Assembly: GCF_021168555.1 (NCBI RefSeq)
Contig: NZ_JAJOZS010000007.1
Coordinates: 124,001 to 188,000, forward strand
Source: Stenotrophomonas sp. MMGLT7
Lineage (GTDB): Bacteria; Pseudomonadota; Gammaproteobacteria; Xanthomonadales; Xanthomonadaceae
DNA: 64,000 bases
Reading direction: 5' to 3'
The notes beneath the pieces are model-generated. The model was not told the DNA's origin and did no database searches. It saw nothing but the letters and a program-made list of their open reading frames with translations. Of this stretch, positions 60,781 to 64,000 are shown in pieces (the stretch's first letter is position 1; every line of letters begins with the position of its first letter). Position numbers and translations under genes: made by a program.

Positions 60781-61395
60781 CTACGGCGCGCGCAGCAGCA
60801 GCCGCAGGCCCAGGCCGGCCATCAGCGCCGCACTGGCGCGATCCAGCGGCCGCCGCGCCCGCGCCCAGCAGCGGCGCGGGGCCGGAGCGGACAGCACGCA
60901 GGCCACCAGCACGAACCACAGCGCATCGACCGCGAAGGCGAGCAGCGGCAGCACCACGTAGTCGGACGCCGCACGCGCCGGCGGCAGCAAGGTGGCGAAC
61001 AGGCTGCCGAACACCAGCGCGGTCTGCGGGTTGCCGAGCTGGGTCAGCAGGCCGAGCACGAACGCCGAACGCACCTGCGGGCCGGCCTGCTGCGCCGGCG
61101 CGACGGCGTCCGGCGCCCGCCGCCACAGCCGCCACGCCAGCCACAGCAGGTAGCCGGCGCCGGCGATCGACAATCCACGGTGCAGCGCCGGCACGCGTTC
61201 GAGCAACGCCTGCAGGCCGAGCAACGCGACCAGCGCGAACACCGCACACCCCACCCCCATGCCCAGCGCGGCGGCAATGCCGGCGGCGCGCGAGCGGCCG
61301 GCCGCCAGCCGCGCCACCAGCAGGAAGCTGGCACCCGGGCTCATCGCCCCCAGCGCCAGCACTCCGGCGATCGCCAGCAGCGCGGCGGCGCTCAC
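60781..61395 (-). CDS. LysE/RhtB-family amino acid exporter
   Basis: Inner-membrane exporter of 204 residues with about six helices; helix 1 reads LLAIAGVLALGAMSPGASFL, containing the family motif SPGASF (usually PGP). It starts with GTG overlapping the asnB stop (GTGA), so it is translationally coupled to asparagine synthetase. Family substrates include Lys, Arg, Thr, homoserine and others; the coupling suggests Asn, Asp or Gln, but this is inferred. Confidence 0.85.
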   Translation of the reverse strand: MSAAALLAIAGVLALGAMSPGASFLLVARLAAGRSRAAGIAAALGMGVGCAVFALVALLGLQALLERVPALHRGLSIAGAGYLLWLAWRLWRRAPDAVAPAQQAGPQVRSAFVLGLLTQLGNPQTALVFGSLFATLLPPARAASDYVVLPLLAFAVDALWFVLVACVLSAPAPRRCWARARRPLDRASAALMAGLGLRLLLRAP

Positions 61396-63083
61396 GCCAG
61401 TGCCTGCTCGTGCACCCCGGCCACCGCGCGGCCGGACGGATCGGCCATGCCGGCGAAGCTGGCGTCCCAGGCGATCGCCGCCGGCGAGGAACAGGCGATC
61501 GACTTGCCGCCGGGCACGGTCTCCGCGGCGCCCGGGCTGGGATAGAACTGCTCGAACAGCGAGCGGTAGAAGTACGCCTCCTTGGTCTGCGGAGGGTTGA
61601 CCGGGAAACGGCCGGCGGCGGCGGCCAGTTCGCGGTCGGACACCTGCGCCTCGGCATGCGCCTTGAGCCCGTCGATCCAGCCGTAGCCGACGCCGTCGCT
61701 GAACTGCTCCTTCTGCCGCCACAGGATCGAATCGGGCAGGTAGCCGGCGAATGCCTCGCGCAGCACGCCCTTCTCCATCCGCGCCGCGCCGGCGGCGGCC
61801 TTGTCGATCATCTTGTGGCTGGCATCCATGCGCATCGCCACGTCGAGGAACTCGCGGTCCAGGAACGGCACCCGCGGCTCCACGCCCCAGGCCATCATCG
61901 ACTTGTTGGCGCGCAGGCAGTCGTAGTTGTACAGCGCGTCGAGCTTGCGGATCAGCTCCTGGTGGAACTCGCGCGCGTCCGGCGCCTTGTGGAAGTACAG
62001 GTAGCCGCCGAAGATCTCGTCGCTGCCCTCGCCCGACAGCACCATCTTCACCCCCATCGCCTTGATCCGCCGCGCCAGCAGGAACATCGGGGTGGAGGCG
62101 CGGATGGTGGTGACGTCGTAGGTCTCGATGTGGCGGATCACCTCCGGCAGCGCGTCCAGGCCTTCCTCGAAGGTGTACTCGAAGCCGTGGTGCACGGTGC
62201 CCAGCGCCTCGGCTGCGATCGCCGCGGCGGCCAGGTCCGGCGAGCCCTTCAGGCCGATGGCGAACGAGTGCAGGCGCGGCCACCAGGCCTCGGCCTGGTC
62301 GTTGTCCTCGATGCGCTTGCGGGCGAAGCGCGCCGCCACCGCCGCCACCAGCGACGAGTCCAGGCCACCGGACAGCAGCACGCCGTAGGGCACGTCGGTC
62401 ATCAGCTGGCGATGCACCGCCTGCTCGAACGCCTCGCGCAGTTCCTGCGGCGAGACCTGCACGCCCGCGACCGCGTCGTACTCGCGCCACGGGCGCTGGT
62501 AGTACTTCACCAACTCGCCGCTGGCGCTGTCGTAGTAGTGGCCCGGCGGGAACTGCGCCACGTCGGCGCAGTCGTCGGCCAGCGACTTCATCTCCGAGGC
62601 CACGCGCAGGCGCCCCTCCTTGTCGTGGCCCCAGTACAGCGGGCACACGCCGATCGGGTCGCGGGCGACGATGACGCGGCGCGCGGCCTTGTCCCACAGC
62701 GCGAAGGCGAAGATGCCGTTGAGCCGGTTGAGGAACGAAGCGGGTTTGTCTTCGCGATACAGCGCGTTGATCACCTCGCAGTCCGAGCCGGTCTGGAACG
62801 CATAGGGCTGCTTCAGCTCGGCCTTGAGCTGCCTGTGGTTGTAGATCTCGCCATTGACCGCCAGTGCCAGCTGCCCGTCCTCGGACAGCAGCGGCTGCGA
62901 GCCGCCGGCCGGATCGACGATGGCCAGGCGCTCGTGCACCAGGATGGCACCGTCGTCCAGGTACACGCCGCTCCAGTCCGGGCCGCGATGGCGCTGCCGC
63001 TGAGAACACTCAAGCGCCTGCCGGCGCAGCAGGTGCAGGTCGTCGCCGGACTGCAGGTCGAAGATGCCGAAGATCGAACACAT
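61392..63083 (-). CDS. asnB: Asparagine synthetase B (glutamine-hydrolysing)
   Basis: Converts aspartate, glutamine and ATP to asparagine, glutamate, AMP and pyrophosphate. The 563-residue product has the class II amidotransferase N terminus with nucleophile Cys2 (MCSIFGIFD), glutamine-binding RLAIVDPAGGSQP and NGEIYNH, and a synthetase domain with PP-loop SGGLDSS (238-244) and GEGSDEIFGGYLYFH. Start ATG has AGGAG about 11 bases upstream. A leader ORF and attenuator lie upstream, and a LysE-type exporter follows. Confidence 0.97.
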   Translation of the reverse strand: MCSIFGIFDLQSGDDLHLLRRQALECSQRQRHRGPDWSGVYLDDGAILVHERLAIVDPAGGSQPLLSEDGQLALAVNGEIYNHRQLKAELKQPYAFQTGSDCEVINALYREDKPASFLNRLNGIFAFALWDKAARRVIVARDPIGVCPLYWGHDKEGRLRVASEMKSLADDCADVAQFPPGHYYDSASGELVKYYQRPWREYDAVAGVQVSPQELREAFEQAVHRQLMTDVPYGVLLSGGLDSSLVAAVAARFARKRIEDNDQAEAWWPRLHSFAIGLKGSPDLAAAAIAAEALGTVHHGFEYTFEEGLDALPEVIRHIETYDVTTIRASTPMFLLARRIKAMGVKMVLSGEGSDEIFGGYLYFHKAPDAREFHQELIRKLDALYNYDCLRANKSMMAWGVEPRVPFLDREFLDVAMRMDASHKMIDKAAAGAARMEKGVLREAFAGYLPDSILWRQKEQFSDGVGYGWIDGLKAHAEAQVSDRELAAAAGRFPVNPPQTKEAYFYRSLFEQFYPSPGAAETVPGGKSIACSSPAAIAWDASFAGMADPSGRAVAGVHEQALA

Positions 63084-63169: not shown

Positions 63170-63200
63170 AAAAAAACCCGCATCGGCCGATGCGGGTTTT
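63170..63200 (-). terminator. Attenuator terminator of the asnB leader
   Basis: Read on the minus strand: AAAACCCGCATCGGCCGATG onward, ending in CGGGTTTTTTTG. The core CCCGCATCGGCCGATGCGGG (63177-63196) is a perfect palindrome followed by seven Ts. It lies between the leader ORF and asnB, and its 5' half can pair with the end of the leader ORF instead. Confidence 0.9.
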
Positions 63201-63225
63201 CTGGTATCCGGGCGTGTGTTGCTGG

Positions 63226-63324
63226 TTACGCCTGATCGCAGTCCCGCATCGGCCGCGCACGATTGTTCGCCGCATTGTTATTGCGGTTGACAACGTTGGC
63301 GGTGCGGTTGGAGGAGCGGATCAT
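63226..63324 (-). CDS. Asn-rich leader peptide of the asnB attenuator
   Basis: A 32-residue ORF starts at the ATG at 63324 and ends with TAA at 63226; AAGG lies eight bases upstream. It reads MIRSSNRTANVVNRN and then NNAANNRARPMRDCDQA. Eight of 32 codons are Asn (AAC or AAT), five of them within seven codons. The last Asn codons precede the segment GGCCGATGCGGG (63254-63243), which is exactly complementary to the terminator's 5' arm. Stalling at Asn codons would free this segment to form an antiterminator; normal reading through to the stop would cover it and allow termination. It lies 40 bases downstream of the dapE stop, so transcription may start in dapE or read through from it. The reading frame in the ORF-like alternative (63293-63111) has no such bias. 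Confidence 0.85.
   Translation of the reverse strand: MIRSSNRTANVVNRNNNAANNRARPMRDCDQA
63243..63254 (-). promoter_or_regulatory. Antiterminator arm in the asnB leader
   Basis: On the minus strand GGCCGATGCGGG; pairs perfectly (12 of 12) with CCCGCATCGGCC (63196-63185), the terminator 5' arm, and is identical to the terminator 3' arm (63188-63177). It covers codons 24-28 of the leader ORF. Confidence 0.85.
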
Positions 63325-63364
63325 GCGGCCGACCTTAACCCGGCCTTCGCGGAGGGCGCAACTG

Positions 63365-64000
63365 TTACGCGAGCAACCGTTCGATCAGCCGCAGGTACAG
63401 CTCGGGCAGCGCCTGCAGGTCGGCGACCGAGACGTGTTCGTCGACCTGGTGGATGCTGGCGTTGACCGGGCCGACCTCGATGCACTGCGCCCCCAGCGGG
63501 GCGATGAAGCGCGCGTCGGAGGTACCGCCGCCGGTGCTTTCCTCCGGCGCGGCGCCGGCGAATCCGCCCAGCACCTCGCGGGCGATGCCGCGCAGGCGGC
63601 CCTCGGGGGTGTAGAACGGTTCGCCGCTGCGATGCCAGCGCAACTCGTGGTCCAGGCCATGGCGATCCAGCAGCGCGGCGATTTCCCTTTCCAGCGCCGG
63701 CGCGTCCCAATGCGGGTTGTAGCGCAGGTTGAACAGCACCTGCAGCTCGCCGGGGATCACGTTGTTGGCGCCGGTGCCGGCGTGGATGTTGCTGACCTGC
63801 AGGCTGGTCGGCGGGAAGCTCTCGTAGCCGTCGTCCCAGTGCCGCGCCACCAGCTCGGCCAGCGCCGGCGCGGCCAGGTGGATCGGGTTGCGCGCCTTGT
63901 GCGGATAGGCGACGTGCCCCTGCACGCCCTTCACCGTAAGCGTGCCGGACAGGCTGCCGCGGCGTCCCACCCGCAGCAGGTCGCCCAGGCGCCCGGTCGA
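63365..64000 (-). CDS. dapE: Succinyl-diaminopimelate desuccinylase, C-terminal part (5' end outside window)
   Basis: Zinc amidohydrolase of lysine and diaminopimelate synthesis. The frame is open to the right edge. Visible are [20 protein letters not shown] with [10 protein letters not shown] in the dimerisation domain, then [20 protein letters not shown], and [15 protein letters not shown] with the late metal-ligand His in [10 protein letters not shown]. The upstream part with the first metal-binding residues lies beyond base 64000. It ends 40 bases upstream of the asnB leader ORF. Confidence 0.95.

Follow-up and report, generated by a model that had tools for sequence, protein, structure and literature searches.

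The window, the whole 64,000-nucleotide stretch of DNA that was analysed, carries an asparagine synthase B gene (asnB) on its minus strand, and the spacer between asnB and the upstream dapE contains predicted promoter elements, a short Asn-rich ORF and an intrinsic terminator. The features of this region are:

63365 to 64000, minus strand: dapE (3' part), the upstream neighbour, not detected beside the leader in distant relatives
63356 to 63361, minus strand: TTGCGC, the -35 element of a predicted promoter for the leader, TTGC being conserved across loci
63332 to 63337, minus strand: -10 element TAAGGT, separated from the -35 element by an 18-nt spacer and containing the AAGG formerly read as a ribosome binding site
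63226 to 63324, minus strand: leader-peptide ORF of 32 codons, 8 of them Asn (5 AAC, 3 AAT), product MIRSSNRTANVVNRNNNAANNRARPMRDCDQA
63262 to 63309, minus strand: Asn control codons (codons 6-21), read from the sequence, with the stalling position modelled
63243 to 63254, minus strand: segment 2, antiterminator 5' arm, GGCCGATGCGGG, within the leader ORF, forming 12 pairs with segment 3 and supported by covariation
63185 to 63196, minus strand: segment 3, CCCGCATCGGCC, antiterminator 3' arm and also terminator 5' arm plus loop
63170 to 63200, minus strand: intrinsic terminator AAAACCCGCATC-GGCC-GATGCGGGTTTTTTT, with stem, GGCC loop and T7, conserved in relatives
61392 to 63083, minus strand: asnB, asparagine synthase B, 563 amino acids (NCBIfam NF006949, 876 bits, cut-off 499), the putative regulated gene
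60781 to 61395, minus strand: LysE/RhtB-type exporter gene (Pfam PF01810), whose GTG start and the asnB stop share 4 nt (GTGA)

An asparagine-codon attenuator controlling asnB had been proposed for this spacer in the initial annotation, and several of the elements it named were recovered unchanged: the ORF of 32 codons at 63324-63226, eight of them for Asn, with the same features seen again at about 110 related loci; the intrinsic terminator on the asnB strand at 63200-63170; and Asn codons ending two codons ahead of segment 2, the last at 63264-63262. The identification of the gene as asparagine synthase B also held, and the physiology of the organism fits. The genome encodes asnS (635 bits), while asnA and gatB were not found in it by searches that detected both targets in control genomes; therefore, Asn-tRNA has just one detected source, the charging of free asparagine by AsnRS, and an Asn attenuator would be expected to sense exactly this. 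A second asnB-like gene is present in the same genome (G000:C40:151565-152767, 44% identity, 647-residue open frame), and this paralogue is perhaps another amidotransferase type. The inclusion of the LysE-type gene in the unit stood in part: it is probably cotranscribed with asnB here, but no match to it was detected in the asnB flanks of the relatives examined, and by this comparison it is not a conserved part of the system.

Among the 1193 short ORFs of the window (15-60 codons, both strands), the leader ORF has the highest number of Asn codons, eight against five for the runner-up. Across 113 leaders at asparagine synthase B genes, 706 Asn codons were counted in frame versus 12 Lys codons, and the remaining two frames contained 4 and 6 Asn codons; a preference for AAY over AAR this strong would not be expected from A-rich composition alone. 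AAT accounts for 48% of the Asn codons in leaders versus 13% in asnB genes, and the rarer codon is therefore used freely in leaders. At least five Asn codons were present in 100 of the 113 leaders, compared to 20 of 683 control 450-nt stretches taken from elsewhere in the same loci and subjected to the same ORF test; at four loci the leader has just three. A short ORF enriched for the amino acid of the pathway is thus found upstream of asparagine synthase B, as a Yanofsky-type attenuator requires.

For the distribution of the leader, asnB loci were sampled from genomes of the window's family and its order. Within the asnB clade of the window's gene, all loci sampled in Xanthomonadaceae, in Rhodanobacteraceae (assigned on the strength of its Dyella and Rhodanobacter members) and in a single sister family, about 110 in total, have an Asn-rich leader ORF, with peptides such as ...NNNNRANNNANRWRARA in Rhodanobacter, ...NNNNRNNASLPRAGD in Lysobacter and ...NNANRNNLRANNRARPMRVCD in Xanthomonas. 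Three Xanthomonadaceae/Rhodanobacteraceae loci with a divergent asnB (L077, L191 and L196; 64-65% identity) are without leader, as are three with an asnB 75-83% identical on contigs labelled Holophagales, Rhodococcus and Deltaproteobacteria (L016, L026 and L043), which are perhaps transfers or mis-binned contigs. In the remaining families of the order, where asnB is about 60-70% identical, most loci lack the leader, and often the upstream gene directly adjoins asnB. A probable exception is L188 (G367:C49:28254-29214), from another family of the order, where a 22-codon leader with four Asn codons (MFAIYNTINTTNNRLLRSAGSF), a terminator (AAAAGCCCGCTTCAAAAGCGGGCTTTTTTTT) and a promoter (TTGACA-17-GATAGT) precede an asnB 65% identical; this is possibly an independent or ancient case. 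An Asn-rich ORF at L241 was rejected as a leader, being the tail of a longer protein.

A covariance-model search of the same genome for further Asn attenuators scored clearly only at the asnB site. A class-wide search with the model brought up generic terminators; of 18 loci retrieved beyond the family, none carries asnB. As an in-genome comparison, hisG of the same genome was searched for a His leader and none was found. At L247 (about 2430-2500; hisG on the minus strand), an inverted repeat GTAATAACGTGCTGTTAC lies ahead of an ORF beginning MKQRPTSAQDRQARTSIEALARALAALDKP, upstream of hisG; the ORF perhaps encodes a TrpR/HisR-like repressor, with the repeat as operator.

The leader ORF and the terminator are connected by a second, mutually exclusive pairing. 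GGCCGATGCGGG (63254-63243) is identical to 63188-63177 in the 3' half of the terminator and is the full complement of 63196-63185, as previously annotated, and the resulting 2:3 pairing was equalled by 0 of 300 shuffled tails; the terminator segment itself folds with -20.3 kcal/mol. The 2:3 match was better than in shuffled leader tails at p<=0.01 in 66 of 114 loci and at p<=0.05 in 89, with weak pairing (p>0.05) in the 25 others, for example at L028 and L029 with five pairs. The terminator sequence is nearly symmetrical (63170-63207) and may also halt plus-strand transcription.

In an alignment of 47 sequences, 73.9% of the positions of the antiterminator (2:3) helix were paired, versus 32-46% when the arms were slid by 1-3 columns, and the terminator (3:4) helix was 93.4% paired. 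Two-sided changes in the antiterminator numbered 55 versus 27.5 in shuffles, a value reached in 0 of 500 shuffles, in tallies that count related sequences several times; because of this recounting, the slid controls and the changes in the terminator loop weigh most. The loop sites are under no constraint from the terminator itself, yet their changes are matched in segment 2. Thus, L010 and L218 have GGTCGATG with CATCGACC, replacing GGCCGATG with CATCGGCC (GGTCG/CGACC in L010), and L084 and L112 have GCGATG paired with CATCGC. One site shows triple covariation, with T/C in segment 2, A/G in segment 3 and T/C in segment 4, and in some Lysobacter-type loci a C-to-T change in segment 3, leaving a wobble in the terminator, occurs alongside G to A in segment 2. 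The initial annotation had pointed to related spacers as the place to examine its proposal, and there Asn-rich leader ORFs are present and the alternative pairings have been kept through compensatory changes, with the terminator between leader ORF and gene and an antiterminator that excludes it.

The effect of a stalled ribosome was modelled by equilibrium folding, with kinetics left aside and a footprint reaching 12 nt beyond the first base of the A-site codon. With the ribosome at N16 or N20, the antiterminator formed (-36.9 kcal/mol) and the terminator had a probability of 0.00; this rose to 0.60 at N21 and to 1.00 from R22 onward. In this calculation, the switch is placed exactly where the Asn run ends: a ribosome stalled at the control codons frees segment 2, a moving one covers it, and the spacing is similar in relatives. 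A 1:2 protector hairpin can be drawn, but upstream pairing of the segment 2 core (mean P 0.78) was no better than in shuffles (0.72). As judged from sequence, the anatomy shows every testable hallmark of Yanofsky-type attenuators except the 1:2 hairpin, and the covarying pairings and the predicted switch position support the layout originally suggested.

Based on this comparative evidence, we propose with a probability of roughly 0.93 that asnB is controlled by a ribosome-mediated transcription attenuator of the Yanofsky type, with tRNA-Asn charging as its signal. RNA polymerase would begin at or beside the leader ATG, and a ribosome would load on the almost leaderless 5' end. With ample Asn-tRNA, the ribosome would clear the Asn codons and cover segment 2, so that segments 3 and 4 pair and transcription ends ahead of asnB. 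With scarce Asn-tRNA, it would stall at an Asn codon, allowing segments 2 and 3 to pair, which would block the terminator and permit transcription of asnB. In this model, translation of the leader, ribosome stalling and read-through are inferred, as is the precise start of transcription.

Concerning the start of the leader message, TTGC was found within -42 to -28 of the leader ATG at 108 of 113 loci versus 5 expected from shuffles, mostly at -35/-36, and each of the three sequence types has a -10-like box whose end lies 6-7 nt ahead of the ATG, with TACGGT, TAGCGT and TAACGT (Xanthomonas type), CAGGAT (Lysobacter type) and TCTAGT and TCAAGT (Rhodanobacter type) at the aligned position. In the window, the spacing of TTGCGC and TAAGGT fits a +1 at 63324 or adjacent. 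The ribosome binding site annotated earlier fared less well in this comparison: AAGG (63336-63333), the only Shine-Dalgarno-like bases in the window's leader, lies inside TAAGGT and is better read as part of the -10 box, and such bases precede 19 of 113 leaders, 14 of them with the CAGGAT variant (5 of 99 without that set), versus 108 of 113 asnB starts. Since the promoter elements fit transcription beginning on or beside the ATG and the Shine-Dalgarno sequence is not conserved, the leader mRNA is probably leaderless, going by these motifs; a literature search found no published transcription-start data for Xanthomonas asnB. The leader could instead be translated from a conventional Shine-Dalgarno sequence on a longer transcript, such as dapE read-through, with the attenuator itself unchanged. 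AAGG just ahead of the ATG here, AGGA within the Lysobacter-type CAGGAT box and, in another family, an L188 start codon about 18 nt past its predicted transcription start are in line with this, but the scarcity of Shine-Dalgarno-like bases at leaders compared to asnB starts, together with TTGC and -10 positions kept across families, makes it unlikely.

The conserved promoter motifs directly ahead of the leader also bear on whether the spacer has any regulatory role. An ordinary terminator of dapE next to a chance Asn-rich ORF would indeed end dapE transcription, and the leader begins only 40 nt past the dapE stop; such an arrangement would, however, leave unexplained the in-frame selection of Asn codons, the covariation of segment 2 with segment 3 and the retention of leader and terminator at loci without a detected dapE close to asnB (Rhodanobacter, Dyella and others), and we regard it as highly improbable. 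A genuine switch responding to a signal other than tRNA-Asn charging, be it a riboswitch ligand, an RNA-binding protein or general leader translation, appears equally remote. Terminator and antiterminator alone would also suit such a device, and the 1:2 hairpin is unsupported, but no Rfam family reached its threshold, Asn codons and segments 2-4 hold the conserved information, nothing aptamer-like being conserved between them, and the Asn codons stop where the attenuator model requires.

The predicted asnB attenuator resembles the enteric his, leu, thr and trp attenuators (Yanofsky type; Rfam leader families) in a leader ORF rich in codons for the amino acid of its own pathway, in mutually exclusive 2:3 antiterminator and 3:4 terminator helices, and in control codons that end at segment 2. 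It differs in its asparagine specificity, in the gene concerned, in the unsupported 1:2 hairpin and in a probably leaderless start, and on the leader strand the Rfam models Thr_leader (RF00506; 24.4 bits, threshold 55) and Leu_leader (RF00512; 21.5 bits, threshold 50) stayed far below threshold. In Firmicutes, asparagine-specific T-box leaders sense tRNA-Asn charging and control asparagine genes; T-boxes bind the tRNA directly, and a leader ORF is not needed. The input predicted for the asnB leader would be shared with these T-boxes, whereas they work without a leader ORF and the asnB leader gave no covariance-model match to a T-box among hits with E values up to 1.

In Sinorhizobium meliloti, the transcript of the trpL attenuator (rnTrpL/peTrpL) begins with the ATG of the leader ORF itself and is leaderless, and a trans role of the peptide has been reported (PMC7298713). 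Both are leader-peptide attenuators, with the leaderless start predicted from motifs for asnB and reported for trpL; trpL responds to Trp rather than Asn, is alphaproteobacterial and concerns a different gene, and the trans role of the peptide is reported for trpL alone. By analogy, the terminated RNA (about 150 nt) and the Asn-rich peptide might also act in trans and link asparagine supply to other genes across Xanthomonadales, which we consider a distinctly doubtful extension. In bacilli, histidine leader peptides ahead of hisS/hisZ (PMC2965389) are likewise leader-peptide attenuators from comparative genomics, for another amino acid and in another phylum. The initial annotation had considered asparagine a new specificity, and no asparagine attenuator was found in Rfam or in the open literature searched, so that an earlier prediction in subscription journals is possible; the main text of the broad screen by Naville and Gautheret does not mention asparagine. 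Leader-peptide switches of this classic kind appear to be previously undescribed for asparagine.

If this reading holds, asparagine would join the amino acids sensed via leader-peptide attenuation, in a system conserved over at least two established bacterial families, with tRNA-Asn charging read by the ribosome rather than by a T-box. The promoter arrangement suggests moreover that gammaproteobacterial attenuators can work with a ribosome loading on leaderless mRNA. For the group including Xanthomonas and Stenotrophomonas, the locus would offer a regulator of asparagine supply that can be tested directly.
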